Assembly: GCA_028598975.1 (NCBI GenBank)
Contig: JAQRMU010000050.1
Span: forward strand, 1-44,651
From: Gammaproteobacteria bacterium
Lineage (GTDB): Bacteria > Pseudomonadota > Gammaproteobacteria > Nitrosococcales > Methylophagaceae
Direction of reading: 5' to 3'
Length of the DNA: 44,651 nucleotides
The notes below the pieces were generated by a model. The model did no database searches, was not told where the DNA came from, and saw only the letters and a list, made by a program, of their open reading frames with translations. Both the position numbers and the translations under genes were made by a program. Numbering within the stretch: position 1 is the first letter of the stretch; each line of letters opens with the position of its first letter. This document shows positions 23,402 through 32,982 of this stretch, piece by piece.

Positions 23402-24602
23402 TTATTCATGTTTTTTTCCTTTCATATTTTCATCAGGCATCATTTTCCAATTAAAATCTTCAAATAAACCTGAGTTTAATTTTGTTAACCACAACTTATG
23501 TATTGCTTGATGCTCTGATTTATTGAAGTAAATATCTAAGCCTAAACCAATGTCAATTCCATTTAATGATTCAATCCCATCAATGATACTTTCCTTAGTA
23601 ATGTCACCTTTTACTTGAAGTAAACCTTGATGGAAAATCTTGGCAATAATAAAGCCCTCTAGAGAGACGGTGTTTGCCTCTAGAGATGAATCAAACTCGC
23701 CCAATGCAGAAAGATACTCATTTACAATAGGTAGTGACGACGTCATGTTAGGTACAACTTGCATCACAATAACATTTTCAATTTCCTTAGAGAGCGCGTT
23801 CAGTAAAGAGTGCCCCCCCCACAAACGAAACATTAAGAAACCAAATATTTGGCAGTTCTTGATTTAGCAGCTCAATAAACTTAGCGGATGGCGCATAACC
23901 TCCAGCCATAATCACAGCTTTAGGAGTAACCGGCGCATCTAAAAATGCTGCAACAGCATCTTCAACATTAAGGGTATTACGTGTATAACGACCATGCACT
24001 AATAAATCTACATCTTTAAAACCATGACTATCTAACGCATTAATCGCACCATAATAAGCGCCATCACCATAGCCATCTCGTTGCGTAAAGAATGCAATTT
24101 CTTCAGGTTTAATCCCTGACAAGATCAGTCCATTAATCATTTCTGCCGTTTCTTCAGCATAGCTGGGGCGATAATTAATAATATAACGATTAACAGGTTC
24201 GGCTCTTAATACCCCACCACCTGAAAAGGCTCCAAATAATAGCGTCTTTTTTTCTTGTGCAATGGGTACAGTCACAATTGCCGTTGGAGTACCCACATTC
24301 CCCAAGATAGCGAGCACCTTCGTATCATCGATCAATTTACGCATATTCTGCGCTGCGCGCTCAGGCTCATAACCATCATCATGAACTATAAACTCAAGTG
24401 TGCGCCCTTGCACTCCACCTTGCTTATTTACTAAACGGAAATAACTTTCAATACCCGCTCGCATGTCATTACCTAGTGTAGCTGCAGGTCCTGTTAATAC
24501 CGCTGTCATACCTAGTTTTATTGGCTCAGCAGCATAACCTAACGATAAGTTCAATAATAAGGCGACTGAGACAATCCATTGTTTAAGATTTAGCGTTATC
24601 AT
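23402..24602 (-). pseudogene. Periplasmic substrate-binding protein (Peripla_BP_6/LivJ-like), frameshifted in a G8 tract
   Basis: The first part (ATG 24602 to the stop at 23787) has a signal peptide (to LGYAAEP) and a type I periplasmic-binding fold of the branched-chain amino-acid class: IKLGMTAVLTGPAATLGNDM, VHDDGYEPERAAQNMRKLI and FFTQRDGYGDGAYYGA. The second part (to 23402) continues the same fold in another frame (IENVIVMQVVPN and onward). The frames part at eight consecutive G (plus strand 23813-23820). Seven would restore one ORF of about 399 residues, a normal family length. No permease or ATPase genes are adjacent, so a sensing partner of the receptor downstream is likelier than transport. 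The start overlaps ccoS by 20 bases. Confidence 0.88.
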
Positions 24603-24780
24603 TCTCTTCCGTTTTGTTTGAATTGTTTGTTTTAGAAACAGGCTTATCATCCATTAAAATTCGATTTGCAGCACCATCCATATCATCATATTGACCACTT
24701 TTCACAGCCCAGAAAAAAATAGCAACACCAATAATTCCTAGCAATAACATGCCTGGCAACAGACCGTAGATAACTTCCAC
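24583..24780 (-). CDS. ccoS: cbb3 oxidase maturation protein CcoS
   Basis: The GTG at 24778-24780, with AGAGG 7 bases upstream and 4 bases after the ccoI stop, gives a 65-residue protein. It has one transmembrane helix (GLLPGMLLLGIIGVAIFFWAV) followed by KSGQYDDMDGAANRILMDD, the CcoS signature. Longer in-frame readings start inside ccoI and are less likely. CcoS is needed to insert heme or copper into CcoN. The Ser/Asn/Lys-rich tail (about 20 residues) is longer than minimal. It ends the ccoGHIS operon, and its 3' end overlaps the binding-protein gene. Confidence 0.9.
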   Translation of the reverse strand: MEVIYGLLPGMLLLGIIGVAIFFWAVKSGQYDDMDGAANRILMDDKPVSKTNNSNKTEENDNAKS

Positions 24781-24784
24781 TTTA

Positions 24785-27217
24785 TTACCTCTTAAAAAAA
24801 CGTTTAATTCTTGCCGCATTGCCTATAACTAATAAAGAGCTAATAGGCATTGTTAGAGCAGCAACAAGTGGGCTGACTAAAGACATCATAGCTAGGGGAA
24901 CCATAACGATATTATAACTAATAGACAAGCTAATATTTTGTTTGATTGTTCGCAAGGTTCGCCGTGCTAGCTCTCTTGCATCAGCGACCTTATGCAATTC
25001 ATTATGTGACAGTACAATATCAGCACTTTCTATGGAGACATCGGTCCCTGATGATAAGGCAATCCCCACATCAGCTTGAATCAAAGCGGGGGAATCATTA
25101 ATACCATCACCTACCATAGCGACAATTTCACCTCGCTGTTGCAAGCTTCGCACTACATCAGCCTTATCCTTTGGTAGGACCTCTGCTTGCCGTTCAATAT
25201 CTCCTAGTGTTGCCGTAACAGCCTCTACAACTGATTGTTTATCGCCACTTAATACCGTGACAGTAACCCCCTGACTTTTCAAAGAAGAAATCATTTCCTT
25301 AGCATCATCTTTCAACTGATCAGCCAAGCCTATTATTCCCTCTACTACGCCATTAATAGCAATAAAAATACAACTAATGCCTTGCTGTTCTAATTCCTTT
25401 ATCCGATTTTCCTTAGTCTCTAAGCCATTTATTCCTAACCGTTCTAACCACGCACGCGTTCCAACTGACACTTGTTTATTATCAACCACTGCTTGCACCC
25501 CTTGGCCCGGCGAGGATGTAAAGTTAGATATGTCAGATAATAATAATTTTTTTTCTAATGCCGTAGCCATTACCGCCTTAGCAATACCATGTTCTGAATG
25601 CTGCTCTACGGATGCTGCTGATAGTAATAAGGCATCCGCTGTCATATCAGTAAAGGTTTCAATCGTAACAACCTTTAACTCACCTTCCGTTAACGTCCCC
25701 GTTTTATCAAATACAAAATGTGTCACCTTTGATAAAAACTCTAATGCAGCTCCTTGCTTAATTAAAATACCTTCATTCGCACCAACTCCTGTTGCAACAG
25801 CAACCGACATTGGTGTTGCTAAACCAAAGGCACAAGGGCAGGTGATAATTAATACTGACGTTGCTGCCAATAAAGCCTGTTCAAAGTCAAATTGATACCA
25901 ATATAGGAAGGTAAAAACAGACAATGAAAGTGTTATTACAACAAACCATGGCACAATTCTATCTGCTGTACACTGAATAGGTGCTTTTGATGCTTGGGCA
26001 TCTTCCATTAAAGACACTATTTTAGACAACGCTGTGTTGCGTAACACGTGCTCAGCTTTTACAGTGAATGCACCTTCACCATTAATACTGCCTGCAACCA
26101 CCTGATCTTCCAACGTTTTAACAATAGGGAGTGACTCCCCCGTTAACATCGATTCATCAACCGCACTTTGGCCATCAACGATTACACCGTCAACTGGTAT
26201 TTTCTCTCCTGGTTTCACCAGAATAGAATCACCAATTTTTACAGCTCTAATTGGTACAATCTTAGCTACTCCATCAGTAATAACAGTTGCAAGTTTAGGT
26301 TGTAATTCTAATAAACGTGATGTCGCAGATAATGCCTGCCGCTTAGAAATAGCTTCTAAATAACGGCCAACTAAAATAACAAATAAAAAGTTAACAACCG
26401 TATCAAAATAAACATCACCTCTTGTCGATCCTGTGACTGTTATATAAGTTGAATAAGCATACGTTGCTGTAGCACCAATCGCGATAGGAAGATCCATCGT
26501 TAGATAGCGCCTACGTAAACCTATTATTGCATTACGTAAAAAAGGATAACCAGCATAGAGTAATGTTGGGGTTGCAATTAGAAAACCGATCCAATGAAAC
26601 CAATTCTTGAACTCACCTTCATCTGCTCCACTATATAGAGCAATAGAAATCCACATCAGGTTCATCATTGCAAAACCAGCAAAGGCCATGCGGTAGAGCA
26701 ATGATCTATGTCGATTTGCTAGCGCGCCTTCGGCCGTATCTGGGTCAAATGGAACGGCGGCATAACCGATCTTTCCTAGCGCTTTTAAGACTGTTGATAG
26801 CGTTGTCGAATTATTATTCCACTTCAAGCGTAAGCGTTTGGAAGTTAAATTAACTTCTGCTGAAACAACACCTAGCTGTCTAGAAAGTGAATGTTCAATA
26901 AGCCACACACAGGCCGCACAGTGAATTCCTTCAACAAGAAGATTTATCGTTCGAAGTTCACCATCCGTATCAACATAATCAGATTGAACCTCATCAAGAT
27001 CATACGCTGCAACTTCAGAAGATAATTCAGGTGGAGGAGACAGAGTCTCACCCTCAGGTGTTTTTTGGTAGAAACTCTCAAGACCAGCATCATAAATAGT
27101 CTGACAGACTGTTTGACAAGCAAAGCAACAAAACTCATGTTGTTTGCTAGCAATATCAGCAGTAAAAACCCCTTCTTCTACTACCGGCAAACTACAGTGA
27201 TAACAATGTATAGACAA
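24785..27217 (-). CDS. ccoI: CcoI/FixI copper-transporting P1B-type ATPase
   Basis: This 810-residue ATPase supplies copper for the CcoN binuclear centre. It has an N-terminal cysteine-rich metal-binding domain (C5/C8, C30/C31/C34), an HMA domain with GIHCAAC (C100, C103) and about eight transmembrane helices with the ion-channel CPC at 460-462. The actuator domain has TGES and the phosphorylation site is DKTGTLT (D504); [10 protein letters not shown] marks the nucleotide hinge. This domain set is the CcoI/FixI (CopA2) subtype. The start is a TTG with no evident Shine-Dalgarno: the frame is closed upstream by TGA and no ATG fits the expected N-terminus, so translation may be low. Confidence 0.95.
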
Positions 27218-27811: not shown

Positions 27812-29230
27812 TTACTTTGGAGCCATAAACATACTTTTATATTTTAAAGTAATGTTTGAATCGGATAATACTTCACCTGTAAATATAAGCGATGTTACAC
27901 CTTCTTTCAGCTTATCTTCTGACACACGCACTAATGCAGTTACAGGAACAACTTTTCCAGGTTCAACAGTCATTAATTTTAAACCATGCAATGTCGCACC
28001 ATCTAAACCCTTAATATCAAACCTAATCTCTAGCGTTTCTTTTGTTTTATTTAATAACTTGATTGTATATTTATTCTGAACTGAACCATCACTTAAACGA
28101 ACAAATAAGGGTTGTCTCTCATGCACAACCTTAAACTCTGTCGGTGATAAATTCATAAATCCGTAAATAATACCTGACATCGCACCCAATAATATTAGTG
28201 CGTATATAATTACTCTGAAACGCTTATACAAGGGTATTGCTTTTGCATTGTGATGCAATTCTTTATACGATGCGTAACGAATTAAACCTCTTGGCTGTTT
28301 AACCTTATCCATAATACTGTCACAGGCATCAATACACATTCCACATGTAATACAGCCATCTTGTTGGCCTTTGCGAATATCAATACCAGTTGGACAAACG
28401 GCCACACACACATTACAGTCCACACAACTGCCCTTAGCAGAATTGTCTTGCCCTTTTTTAATCCGACCGCGAGGTTCACCACGTTCAGCATCATAGGATG
28501 GCAAGATAGTATCCTGATCATACATAACACCTTGTAAACGAGCATATGGGCATAACCAGAAACAGACTTGCTCCCGCATAAAACCAGCAAATGTATATGT
28601 ACCAAATGTAAACGCGGCAATAATGACTGCAGCTGTTACCGAAACCTGGAGGCTAAATAAGTTATTCCATAAGTTAAATGCATCCGTAAACCAAGCTACA
28701 AACGAAATTCCTGTTAATAAACCAATCGATAACCATAGTGTATGTTTAAATGCTTTTCGACTAACTTTATTCACTGTCCAAGCTGCATTATTGAACTTCA
28801 TCGCCTTTTGTGGCGTGTTCCCTTCAAGCTTACCCTCTAGCCATGTGAAAATATCCGTCCAGACTGTTTGAAAGCAAAAATACCCACAAAACACTCGCCC
28901 CGCAATACTGGTAACAGCAGCAAGTAAAATAGCAAAAAAAAGTAACGTCAATGAGAGCATCCAGATATCCTGTGGATAAATGGTAATATCAAAAATATTA
29001 AATTGACGGTTCGGAAGATCAAATAAAATTGCTTGTGAATCGTTCCAACGTAGGTATGGGCCTAAAAAAAGTACTGACCAAATTGACATACCAAGCCACT
29101 TTAAAGTACGGAACCGCCCAGCCAACCGCTTTGCAACGATTTTGATACCACCAGTATTAATATGCCACTCAGACACTTCTTCATAGAGTTCATCTACACT
29201 TGTTGTCTGTTTCTTTGATTCTTCACTCAC
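27812..29230 (-). CDS. ccoG: CcoG/FixG/RdxA, membrane-bound 2x[4Fe-4S] protein
   Basis: This 472-residue protein has about five transmembrane segments, a CGYFC pair in the membrane (C115/C119), and a ferredoxin-type segment with CVDCNVCVAVCPTGID and CITCGMCIDACD. A periplasmic Ig-like C-terminal domain follows. CcoG is a copper reductase that hands Cu(I) to the cbb3 assembly path. The start is GTG (29228-29230) with TTAGGAG 7 bases upstream. It begins the ccoGHIS operon behind its own extended -10 promoter. Confidence 0.95.
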   Translation of the reverse strand: MSEESKKQTTSVDELYEEVSEWHINTGGIKIVAKRLAGRFRTLKWLGMSIWSVLFLGPYLRWNDSQAILFDLPNRQFNIFDITIYPQDIWMLSLTLLFFAILLAAVTSIAGRVFCGYFCFQTVWTDIFTWLEGKLEGNTPQKAMKFNNAAWTVNKVSRKAFKHTLWLSIGLLTGISFVAWFTDAFNLWNNLFSLQVSVTAAVIIAAFTFGTYTFAGFMREQVCFWLCPYARLQGVMYDQDTILPSYDAERGEPRGRIKKGQDNSAKGSCVDCNVCVAVCPTGIDIRKGQQDGCITCGMCIDACDSIMDKVKQPRGLIRYASYKELHHNAKAIPLYKRFRVIIYALILLGAMSGIIYGFMNLSPTEFKVVHERQPLFVRLSDGSVQNKYTIKLLNKTKETLEIRFDIKGLDGATLHGLKLMTVEPGKVVPVTALVRVSEDKLKEGVTSLIFTGEVLSDSNITLKYKSMFMAPK

Positions 29231-29324: not shown

Positions 29325-29351
29325 AAAAAAAGCCGGCATAAAGCCGGCTTT
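29325..29351 (-). terminator. Strong intrinsic terminator of the ccoNOQP transcript
   Basis: A nine-pair perfect stem AAAGCCGGC / GCCGGCTTT with a five-base loop is followed on the minus strand by seven T. It lies 20 bases after the 39-residue ORF and separates ccoNOQP from ccoGHIS. Confidence 0.93.
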
Positions 29352-29370: not shown

Positions 29371-29490
29371 TTAATCGTCAGATTTATCTTCATTAATATG
29401 CTTCAATGCATAATGTACAAAGTAAGCAAGCCCGGCAATCATTGCAACAACACTTGCAATTACGGATATGGAAACCCAATCTACATTCAT
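29371..29490 (-). CDS. 39-residue single-helix membrane protein at the end of the ccoNOQP transcript
   Basis: The ATG at 29488-29490, with GGAG 7 bases upstream, opens a 39-residue ORF. It starts MNVDWVS, has one transmembrane helix (about 7-29, ending GLAYFVHYAL), and ends with a charged tail (KHINEDKSDD). It lies 47 bases after ccoP and before the operon terminator, so it is transcribed with the oxidase subunits. Position, size and topology recall small accessory subunits of cbb3 oxidases such as CcoM of Pseudomonas stutzeri; I cannot confirm homology. The ribosome-binding site, protein-like composition and operon position support a real gene. Confidence 0.65.
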   Translation of the reverse strand: MNVDWVSISVIASVVAMIAGLAYFVHYALKHINEDKSDD

Positions 29491-29537
29491 AATAACTCTC
29501 CAATTTCTATAGAAATAATAAATCTCTACAAGTTATA

Positions 29538-30497
29538 TTATTGACCACCACCGAACTGGTGTACATAAACAGTTAACTTCTTAATATCTGTTTCTGTTAA
29601 ACGTTCAGCTTCATCGCCTTCCAGCTCATCAGACCAATCAATGTCGTTAGGATCTTCATCATCGGCAATGGCATCAGCTCGAACTTGTAACATGATCGCA
29701 AGTTTTTCACTCCACTGAGGCATAACAGCAATACGTGTTTTAGGGTCAGAAGCATCATTCACACCATGTAAAATAGTATGACGAATTTGCTCTTCATCGC
29801 CAGAAAAACGCCAGATTTTATCGGTTAAGTTTGCAGACCCCATCGCTTTGATACCCTTGGCATCAGCCCCATGACATGCAAAACAACCTTTAGCATTAAA
29901 CAATGCAAGACCAGCCTCATTTGCCGTACCATTTGCGCTATCAACAACAAACTTCACTAATTGATCAACTTCTGCTTCAGTAAGTAAGTCTTTATGCGCC
30001 ATCATCGTACCTGCACGACCATTAGCAATACTCATTTGGATATCATTAAGTGAACCACCAAATAACCAGTCATCATCAGTAAGGTTAGGATAACCAGCAC
30101 CTTCTGCTGGAGCTCCGCCTGTACCATGACATGCAGCACAGTTATCACCGTAAAGTACCTTGCTTGAACCAATGGCATAATTTAGCATTTCTGCATCTGC
30201 AAGAATCTCTTCTACACTCATTGCAGCTAAACGCGTTTCAGATGGTGCTCGAATCGCTTCTACCTTGGCAAGGTCTTCTTTATACTCTTTAATCTGCGTC
30301 CAACCAAGCAAACCTTTAGTACTATCATTAACTAATGGTAATGATGGGTAAAGAATAAAGTAAACAATAACCATTATCCCACTTAACCAAAGTGAATTTA
30401 GCCACCAACGTGGACATGGATTATTTAGTTCTCTAATCCCATCCCATACATGGCCAGTATCTTCCACTTGAGCAGGGTTACTCTTTTTATCTGCCAT
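29538..30497 (-). CDS. ccoP: cbb3-type cytochrome c oxidase subunit III (diheme CcoP)
   Basis: This 319-residue subunit has a CcoP N-terminal region with one transmembrane helix (about 33-55) after DGIRELNNPCPRWW. Two cytochrome c domains follow, with CAACH (C120-H124) and CFACH (C205-H209). Met ligands are expected in the MAHKD and MPQWS regions. It passes electrons to CcoO and CcoN. It lies one base after ccoQ in the ccoNOQP operon. Confidence 0.97.
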   Translation of the reverse strand: MADKKSNPAQVEDTGHVWDGIRELNNPCPRWWLNSLWLSGIMVIVYFILYPSLPLVNDSTKGLLGWTQIKEYKEDLAKVEAIRAPSETRLAAMSVEEILADAEMLNYAIGSSKVLYGDNCAACHGTGGAPAEGAGYPNLTDDDWLFGGSLNDIQMSIANGRAGTMMAHKDLLTEAEVDQLVKFVVDSANGTANEAGLALFNAKGCFACHGADAKGIKAMGSANLTDKIWRFSGDEEQIRHTILHGVNDASDPKTRIAVMPQWSEKLAIMLQVRADAIADDEDPNDIDWSDELEGDEAERLTETDIKKLTVYVHQFGGGQ

Positions 30498-30498
30498 C

Positions 30499-30720
30499 TT
30501 ATTTCTCCGATTCTATATCGTTTTCATCTAAAAGCATGGTGCGATGTGATTCGATCTCTTCTTTATTTTTAGGATTCAAGACCCAAACATAGGCAACAAA
30601 AATCACTAAAAATACAACCACAGTCAACACAAGCCCAAACCAGTCTGTACCTGTCATTGCACTCCATTCAGTATGGAAATACTCTTGAAGTTTAGTCACG
30701 GTAATCTCTACCTGGTTCAA
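30499..30720 (-). CDS. ccoQ: cbb3 oxidase subunit CcoQ
   Basis: This 73-residue protein has one transmembrane helix ([21 protein letters not shown]) and a charged C-terminus starting [12 protein letters not shown], the CcoQ pattern. It stabilises the CcoP interaction. The ATG at 30720 lies 29 bases inside ccoO; an internal ATG at 30657 with GGAG 4 bases upstream would give a shorter product. The segment before the helix ([13 protein letters not shown]) resembles longer CcoQ forms, so the longer start is kept. Confidence 0.85.
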
Positions 30721-31390
30721 ATTTAATCATGGTACCTAATACTTGAAGGTAAGCAACCATTGCATCCATTTCAGTTTTACCTTCAACTGAAGCTGCTGCA
30801 CCCTTGATATCTTCATCAGTATAAGGTACACCCAAAACTCTCATCGCTTTTACACGTTTTTCGATGCCGACACCATCAATAGTAGCGTCATCTAACCACG
30901 GGTAATTTGGCATTATTGATTCAGGTACTACACTACGTGGAGCACGTAGATGTTGTCTATGCCATTCGTCAGAGTATTTACCACCTAAACGAGCGATATC
31001 TGGACCAGTACGTTTAGAGCCCCATTGGAATGGGTGATCATACTTAGATTCAACAGCTAATGAGTAATGACCGTAACGATCTTTCTCATCACGGAAAGGA
31101 CGAATCATTTGTGAATGACACAAGTAACAACCTTCACGTTGATAGACATCACGTCCAGCCAATTCTAAAGCTGTATATGGACGCACACCTTCTAACTCTT
31201 TGTACAGAGGATTTCCATCTTCATCCACATGTGCTGTGTCTTCAAACGTTGAATCTAAATAGAATAAAGGAACGATTTCTACGATCCCACCAACTGACAC
31301 AATCATAGCGGTTGCTAAGACAAGTGCCCATACGTTTTTTTCCAGTTTCTCTTGAAAGGATACTGGTTTATTTGAGTTATGTTCAGACAT
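30692..31390 (-). CDS. ccoO: cbb3-type cytochrome c oxidase subunit II (monoheme CcoO)
   Basis: This 232-residue membrane-anchored cytochrome c has a transmembrane helix at about 20-43, then heme-binding CYLCH (C88, C91, H92) followed by SQMIRPF, and a late Met-containing region (SIMPNYPWL) for axial ligation. It transfers electrons to the CcoN active site. It follows ccoN by 11 bases and overlaps ccoQ. Confidence 0.97.
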
Positions 31391-31401: not shown

Positions 31402-32829
31402 TTAAATAACAGCGTTAGCTGTAGCTGCAGACTTCGCAGATGAATCAGCAATAGCTTTACGAATAGTGACAGTAACATTAAATAACATCACGCATGCACC
31501 TAGGAAGAAGATTAATCCACCTGCAGCACGCATCGCATAATATGGATGCATTTGGGCAACTGATTCAACGAATGTGTAAGCCAAGTTACCGTAATCATCA
31601 TATGCACGCCACATTAGACCTTGCATGATTCCAGATACCCACATCGCAGTGATGTAAACAACCGTACCAATTGTTGCCATCCAGAAGTGTAAGTTAACTA
31701 ACTTAACAGACCAGATAGTTGTACCCCATAGGCGTTCAACCATATGGTAAATAGCACCAATAGATACCATTGCAACCCAACCTAATGCACCAGCATGTAC
31801 ATGACCGATAGTCCAGTCAGTGTAATGAGATAAAGCATTGACTGTTTTAGCCGCCATAACAGGGCCTTCGAATGTAGACATTGCATAGAATGCTAATGAT
31901 ACGATTAGGAAACGTAAGATGTAATCTGTACGTAATTTATCCCAAGCACCACTTAATGTGAACATACCATTAATCGCACCACCCCAAGATGGGATGATCA
32001 TCGCTAATGAGATAGCGGCACCTAATGAACCGGTCCAATCTGGTAATGCAGTGTATTGAAGGTGATGAGCACCTAACCATACATAACCAAATGTTAAAGC
32101 CCAGAAATGGATAACTGATAAACGGTAAGAATAAATAGGACGATTAGCTTGTTTAGGAACGAAGTAATACATAATCCCTAAGAAACCAGCAGTTAGGAAG
32201 AAACCTACCGCATTATGTCCCCACCACCACTGAATCATAGCATCTTGTACACCAGAATAAATTGAGTAAGATTTAAACAATTCAACTGGGATAGATAAGC
32301 TATTCACGACATGTAAGTACGTGATCATAATCATCATCGCTAAGAAGAACCAGTTTGCTACGTAGATATGAGATACCTTTCGAGTAGCTAACGTCATGAT
32401 GAAGTTAAAGCTATATGCTAACCAAACGACAGCAATTAAAATATCAATTGGCCATTCTAATTCTGCATACTCTTTAGATTGTGTAATACCTAAAGGAAGC
32501 GTAATTACGGCACTGACAATCACAAGATTCCAGCCCCAGAATGTAAACCAAGCCAGCTTATCACTCCACAACCGTACACCTGATGTACGTTGCACAATGT
32601 AATAAGCTGTTGCCATTAACGTTGAACCACCAAATGCAAAAATTACTGCATTAGTATGTAACGGACGTAAACGACCAAAACTAATATACGGATTATCGAA
32701 GTTAAGAACTGGCCATGCCAATTCAGAGGCGATATACACACCTATTCCCGTACCAACTACTAAGTAAACGACTGCCATGTAGGCAAACCATTTCACTATT
32801 TGAAAACTATATTGCTGTTCCGCTTGCAT
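31402..32829 (-). CDS. ccoN: cbb3-type cytochrome c oxidase catalytic subunit I (CcoN)
   Basis: This heme-copper oxidase of 475 residues (from ATG 32829) has about twelve transmembrane helices. Histidine ligands are visible in RPLHTN (H58, low-spin heme), [11 protein letters not shown] (CuB), GAHHLQYT (CuB pair) and [10 protein letters not shown] (hemes). It reduces oxygen to water with high affinity. The open frame extends to 32862, but [10 protein letters not shown] is the usual beginning and an AAGGG lies 10-12 bases upstream. It heads ccoNOQP with an FNR-type box upstream. Confidence 0.97.
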
Positions 32830-32968
32830 AGCGACCACACCCTTTCTATCAATGAAAAACACTAACTCAACCCTTCATAATATAAAGGTGTTGACCCATT
32901 CCATCACGCTTATCTATAAAGCACGCTGCATTTTACAGCACTTTTTCTATCACACTGTCATCCATTAC

Positions 32969-32982
32969 ATGATCTAGATCAA
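32969..32982 (-). promoter_or_regulatory. FNR/ANR-type oxygen-regulator box upstream of ccoN
   Basis: On the minus strand TTGATCTAGATCAT matches the FNR consensus TTGAT-N4-ATCAA at nine of ten defined positions. It is centred about 146 bases before the ccoN ATG. FNR/ANR control of cbb3 operons is well established. Spacing to the best -10 (TAAAAT, 32930-32935) would put the site near -52, which is atypical, so the start site is unsure. Confidence 0.75.

Follow-up and report, generated by a model that had tools for sequence, protein, structure and literature searches.

A small one-helix protein encoded beside ccoP, conserved in Gammaproteobacteria and apparently tied to one branch of cbb3 oxidases

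The cbb3 oxidases serve respiration at very low oxygen, and few of their lineages have solved structures. In the window (the whole stretch of DNA analysed here, 44,651 nucleotides of a Methylophagaceae genome), the structural genes of such an oxidase are followed by a 39-codon reading frame that lies ahead of a terminator. Does this short frame encode a further small component of the oxidase, and if so, how does that component relate to the known one-helix proteins of terminal oxidases?

A short reading frame at the end of the ccoNOQP operon

The ATG-started ORF occupies positions 29371..29490 on the minus strand in the ORF list and encodes a 39-aa protein, MNVDWVSISVIASVVAMIAGLAYFVHYALKHINEDKSDD. 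It lies downstream of ccoP (29538..30497, minus strand; TIGR00782 ccoP, 252 bits) and ahead of an intrinsic terminator (29329..29351, minus strand), whose stem-loop at 29351-29329, AAAGCCGGC-loop-GCCGGCTTT, is followed by a T run and has similar hairpins in relatives. The ccoP stop and the ORF are 47 nt apart, the ORF stop and the terminator 19 nt, and a Shine-Dalgarno sequence, TTGGAGAG, ends 5 nt before the ATG (29496..29503, minus strand). A sequence-only reading had placed a small ORF with a ribosome-binding site between ccoP and the terminator, and this placement holds. Upstream of the ORF, the gene order is ccoN (31402..32862; COX1, 391 bits), ccoO (30692..31390; FixO, 272.6 bits), ccoQ (30499..30720; position and a sub-threshold FixQ match, E 0.001) and ccoP; past the terminator come ccoG (27812..29230), ccoH, ccoI and ccoS (24583-24819; FixS match, PF03597 / TIGR00847). 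The genes ccoN, ccoO, ccoQ and ccoG are likewise on the minus strand. The neighbours ccoP, ccoO, ccoN, ccoG, ccoH and ccoS were confirmed, and ccoI was assigned by its position and a reading of its sequence. The FixQ score of the operon's ccoQ is 19.3 against a cut-off of 29 bits, and the Pfam model covers the ccoQ of this oxidase lineage poorly. An FNR/ANR-like palindrome with one mismatch, ATGATCTAGATCAA (32969..32982, unstranded), stands upstream of ccoN, but a window-wide count puts it within chance, such matches being common by chance. We claim no internal promoter, because a promoter scan gave fewer sites than shuffles did.

Selection was analysed in 18 Methylophagaceae sequences, namely that of the window, 16 from other members of its genus and one from a second genus of the family, with the 17 relatives' copies showing 56-97% identity. 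Pooled pS was 0.57 and pN 0.16, giving a pN/pS of 0.27 and a JC dN/dS of 0.16. The ORF frame is free of stops in all 18 sequences, whereas the other two forward frames carry stops in 18/18 and have a pN/pS of about 1. Mismatch rates at codon positions 1, 2 and 3 were 0.21, 0.13 and 0.39, respectively, and nearly all of the sequences retain the GGAG motif, the start and a hairpin downstream of the ORF. The earlier reading had named a frame not conserved in relatives of equal ccoP-ccoG spacing as a refutation and dN/dS as a check, and on these points it is borne out. These data indicate that the ORF is a genuine protein-coding gene. Moreover, AlphaFold2 with a 21-sequence alignment predicted one helix spanning residues 5-36 (mean pLDDT 88.6), in agreement with the single hydrophobic helix proposed before. 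Single-sequence searches of Pfam, NCBIfam and PDB gave no match above any curated cut-off, and the highest-ranking of the weak Pfam matches (DUF7248, DUF997, Syndecan and Glycophorin) were rejected as the usual single-helix noise.

Distribution of the family and lineage of its oxidases

Within Methylophagaceae, a homologue beginning M-x-[IF]-D-A-V-V-I-G occupies the same location in a second branch, and MDAV[AV][IL]G forms occupy it in more distant MAGs (L058-L063). Methylophaga aminisulfidivorans and M. sulfidovorans belong to this second branch; at their ccoP loci (L051 and L052) the encoded proteins are MHIDAVVIGAIASVVLTIVVIGVIGYRIMKNLDDK and a version of it with one residue changed. The homologue lies within 80 nt after ccoP in the readable Methylophagaceae ccoP loci, four genomes excepted, in which the ccoP-ccoG gap is down to 7-153 nt. 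These gene-less loci (L233-L236, in G027, G021, G015 and G017) amount to a natural loss experiment; in G027 there is an additional, divergent ccoP (L238).

Two family profiles, A1 and the wider A2, were searched over 369 Gammaproteobacteria genomes. A1 matched 39 of these genomes at E<=0.01, and among the 29 A1 loci that were read (L111-L139), 27 matches lie immediately downstream of ccoP, the exceptions being a short contig (L114) and an unlinked copy (L120). With A2 at E<=1e-6, 36 of the 369 genomes, from 21 families, were matched, and ccoP is present in 35 of these 36 carriers versus 201/369 genomes overall; a weaker A2 match (E 5e-4) directly after ccoP makes G113 a further carrier by synteny. 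D4 is invariant across the A2 alignment and V6 and V14 are nearly so. Of 68 loci, 54 have a terminator-like hairpin no more than 90 nt past the ORF, so the cco transcription unit usually ends with this gene; this, with its place before the terminator in the window, agrees with the sequence-only reading in assigning it to the ccoNOQP unit. Unlinked family copies (DATAI...RITRLMKxCNS) were seen at L220 (G180 C1:166807-166917), L222 (G192 C7:702677-702787) and L224 (G400 C11:16329-16439). These three genomes, whose unlinked copies are remote from any cco gene, also keep a ccoP-linked one, so such a gene may be able to move. One member (L133; G088 C10:13721-13816) is extended at its C-terminus to 96 aa, with many Lys, Arg, Ala and Ser residues in the extension. 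A tblastn search of plasmids with the family consensus found none.

We then compared the oxidases themselves by means of CcoN. A careful tree of 66 rows gathered 27/27 carriers and four Methylophagaceae non-carriers in one group (support 100/100), apart from the oxidases of Pseudomonas, the DUF3149-adjacent oxidases and the others. Because the first non-carriers had been drawn from the highest-scoring ccoP genes, genomes with divergent CcoP, mostly non-carriers, were added. In the 97-row tree, a rapid reconstruction whose branches are long and whose deeper order is not trustworthy, 31/31 carriers fell inside one 39-row clade (SH-aLRT 100), and 0 of the 58 rows outside it were carriers. Seven further rows of the clade are non-carriers, and the last is a contig end (L356; G265 C91:1-240) whose status is undecidable: its sequence after ccoP differs from that in the sister carrier G142, perhaps through an insertion or a repeat break. 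Among the non-carriers within the clade, the ccoP-ccoG gap is shortened in Methylophagaceae (7-153 nt) and in L389 (about 150 nt); in L368 the gene next to ccoP is ccoH, and in L384 unrelated sequence stands there. Such absences read as repeated loss. With seven oxidases of the same clade having no such gene beside ccoP, the gene is therefore dispensable or replaceable. These comparisons suggest that the small protein is conserved in some 20 Gammaproteobacteria families and tied to one branch of cbb3 oxidases, its gene being an inherited part of that lineage that was apparently lost several times.

Relation to CcoM and other one-helix proteins

Judged by sequence, the closest known protein to the window protein appears to be CcoM of Pseudomonas stutzeri (PDB 5djq chain N, NF041600), for which Kohlstaedt et al. 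(2016) is reportedly the key paper. The two proteins are similar in length (36 aa for CcoM, 39 aa in the window), have one helix and likely the same topology, share an N-terminal M-x-[IVM]-D and occur with a cbb3 oxidase. The marks of the CcoM type, namely a single helix of ~36 aa, an N-terminal D4 and genomes with cbb3, are all found in the present family, and D4 is invariant both in this family (A2) and in CcoM (A3). According to PMC8267372, CcoM is a single-helix subunit needed for stability and not for activity; further details come through the citing papers PMC10433244 and PMC9264385.

In hhalign, A2 and Pseudomonas CcoM aligned over their full length and without gaps from M1 (94%, E 1.5e-7, score 32.8), and when the helix columns were permuted the null was 14.8 +- 3.3, with 0/300 profiles reaching the observed score. 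Against PDB, A2 ranked 5djq_N first (E 0.36), a chain whose sequence is that of P. stutzeri CcoM, and NF041600 was the commonest NCBIfam match among family members. Its curated cut-off (40 bits) was not reached, however: the window protein had no match, the best relative had E 1.4e-4, and the NF041600 search of the class genomes gave no match in the window genome (G000). In a control, DUF3149 against A2 scored 92.6%, and CcoQ against DUF3149, two presumably unrelated proteins, also beat its own permuted null. We place less trust in the CcoM match because DUF3149 is nearly equal and the CcoQ-DUF3149 pair passes the same null; a one-helix profile comparison is weakly specific and cannot settle ancestry.

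We give even odds to the protein being a CcoM orthologue that was kept beside ccoP while Pseudomonas relocated its ccoM, an explanation compatible with a subunit role. The gapless match from M1, the shared D4, the hhalign result and the top PDB rank all speak for it, as does the arrangement in Pseudomonas, in which ccoP-ccoG gaps of about 110-250 nt (where both genes were found) hold no such ORF and ccoM lies elsewhere, the surrounding 1.5 kb or so being free of cco genes; unlinked copies exist in the present family too. Set against these points are the score under the curated CcoM cut-off, the insufficient specificity of one-helix profiles and the position of Pseudomonas CcoN, which groups outside the carrier clade with many non-carriers. 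CcoM also differs in its C-terminal tail, which is basic (HKKS) and not acidic as in the window protein (EDKSDD). Thus, working like CcoM is likely and orthology is unproven; "CcoM-like" is a fair name, but identity with CcoM itself is not established. The earlier proposal of an oxidase subunit or assembly factor like CcoM stands as the best explanation and in naming the closest protein, while the likeness is weakened by the missed cut-off, the remoteness of Pseudomonas ccoM from cco genes and the different CcoN clade of the carriers' oxidases.

It is also conceivable, though we think it rather doubtful, that the protein represents a separate, previously undescribed family of cbb3 subunits that arose with one oxidase lineage, each major lineage having its own one-helix partner. 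If this were true, the partners would be CcoM in Pseudomonas, the window protein's family, DUF3149 in other Gammaproteobacteria and CcoX/CcoY in Campylobacter, and a small transmembrane helix would be a general yet repeatedly replaced part of C-type oxidases. DUF3149 (PF11346) is about 40 aa long, has one helix and lies directly between ccoP and ccoG in three genomes (L287 / G179 C1:329657-329761; L285 / G202 C41:9557-9673; L279 / G189 C14:3805-3915). It differs from the window family in carrying LLFGxxxGLLS at its N-terminus, where that family has the D4 motif, and is mostly not beside ccoP, and the window protein scored 11.9 bits against it, below the gathering cut-off of 23.2 bits. DUF3149 occurs in 22/185 class genomes, 22/22 of which have ccoP and none of which is a confident carrier of the window protein's family, and it may be a candidate for the counterpart of this helix in other cbb3 lineages. 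A search of the open-access literature returned no paper naming DUF3149.

In C. jejuni, the small one-helix proteins CcoY/CcoX (Cj1485, Cj1486/DUF4006) are encoded downstream of ccoP, as here; CcoY, with 33 aa and one helix, is needed for full Cco activity and CcoX for any Cco activity (PMC8267372). These proteins belong to another bacterial phylum and are likened to the window protein by gene position and size only, and DUF4006 is absent among the Pfam matches listed for the window protein's family. CcoQ (FixQ, PF05545) is a small one-helix cbb3 subunit of the same operon, but a separate ccoQ is present at its usual place, the window family reached just 30% against the CcoQ profile, and the window protein has no FixQ match and is encoded after ccoP, not between ccoO and ccoP. 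Nor is it CcoS, as it has no FixS match (PF03597 / TIGR00847) and a separate ccoS is present.

Putative role at the oxidase

We consider it probable (roughly 0.78) that the window protein is a one-helix accessory subunit, encoded by the last ccoNOQP cistron, which packs on the cbb3 oxidase and stabilises or assembles it. This reading builds on protein-level selection, synteny, co-inheritance with one CcoN clade and a predicted helix. The ORF would be co-expressed as the last cistron of the ccoNOQP message, and its product would be a one-helix inner-membrane protein, probably with the N-terminus out and the short charged C-terminus in, because the N-terminus is acidic and Lys/Arg follow the helix. 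The single helix may then pack against the membrane face of the oxidase, where it would stabilise the complex or aid its assembly in the manner of Pseudomonas stutzeri CcoM. Conservation along the helix shows no significant helical moment (p 0.09), so we do not propose a conserved packing face.

Less probable, at about one chance in five, is a transient assembly or copper/haem maturation factor, comparable to CcoS or CcoH, in place of a stoichiometric subunit. The ORF does stand between the structural genes and ccoG-ccoH-ccoI-ccoS, and sequence and synteny are compatible with either role, so that a structural and an assembly function cannot be separated by them; yet the family has no conserved Cys or His motif suggesting metal handling, the terminator divides the ORF from ccoG and groups it with the structural genes, and the closest match, CcoM, is a structural subunit. 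A role as leader peptide or attenuator, in which translation of the ORF would govern the terminator ahead of ccoG, is very unlikely: the terminator does start shortly after the stop codon, but the amino acids are conserved over some 20 families with the low Methylophagaceae dN/dS, a full membrane helix is predicted and family copies exist away from the cco operon. Short ORFs are frequent (102 ORFs of at least 25 aa overlap 10 kb), but a chance ORF in a non-coding 3' region is refuted by the codon-level analysis of the 18 Methylophagaceae sequences, with its dN/dS and stops absent from one frame only, and is contradicted by the conserved start, Shine-Dalgarno sequence, location and family-wide profile.

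The accessory-subunit reading gives a concrete prediction for the carrier CcoN lineage and a route to asking what makes so small an additional helix necessary in C-type oxidases. The family, whose member in the window stays below every Pfam and NCBIfam cut-off, is easily overlooked in annotation and in preparations. The general features of small accessory subunits of terminal oxidases are found here, the protein being conserved, one-helix, operon-linked and co-inherited with its oxidase. CydX and CioY of the bd-type oxidases are likewise very small subunits with one helix, and their genes close a terminal oxidase operon (for CioY, PMC11955535), although they belong to another oxidase superfamily and serve as an analogy that claims no sequence relation.
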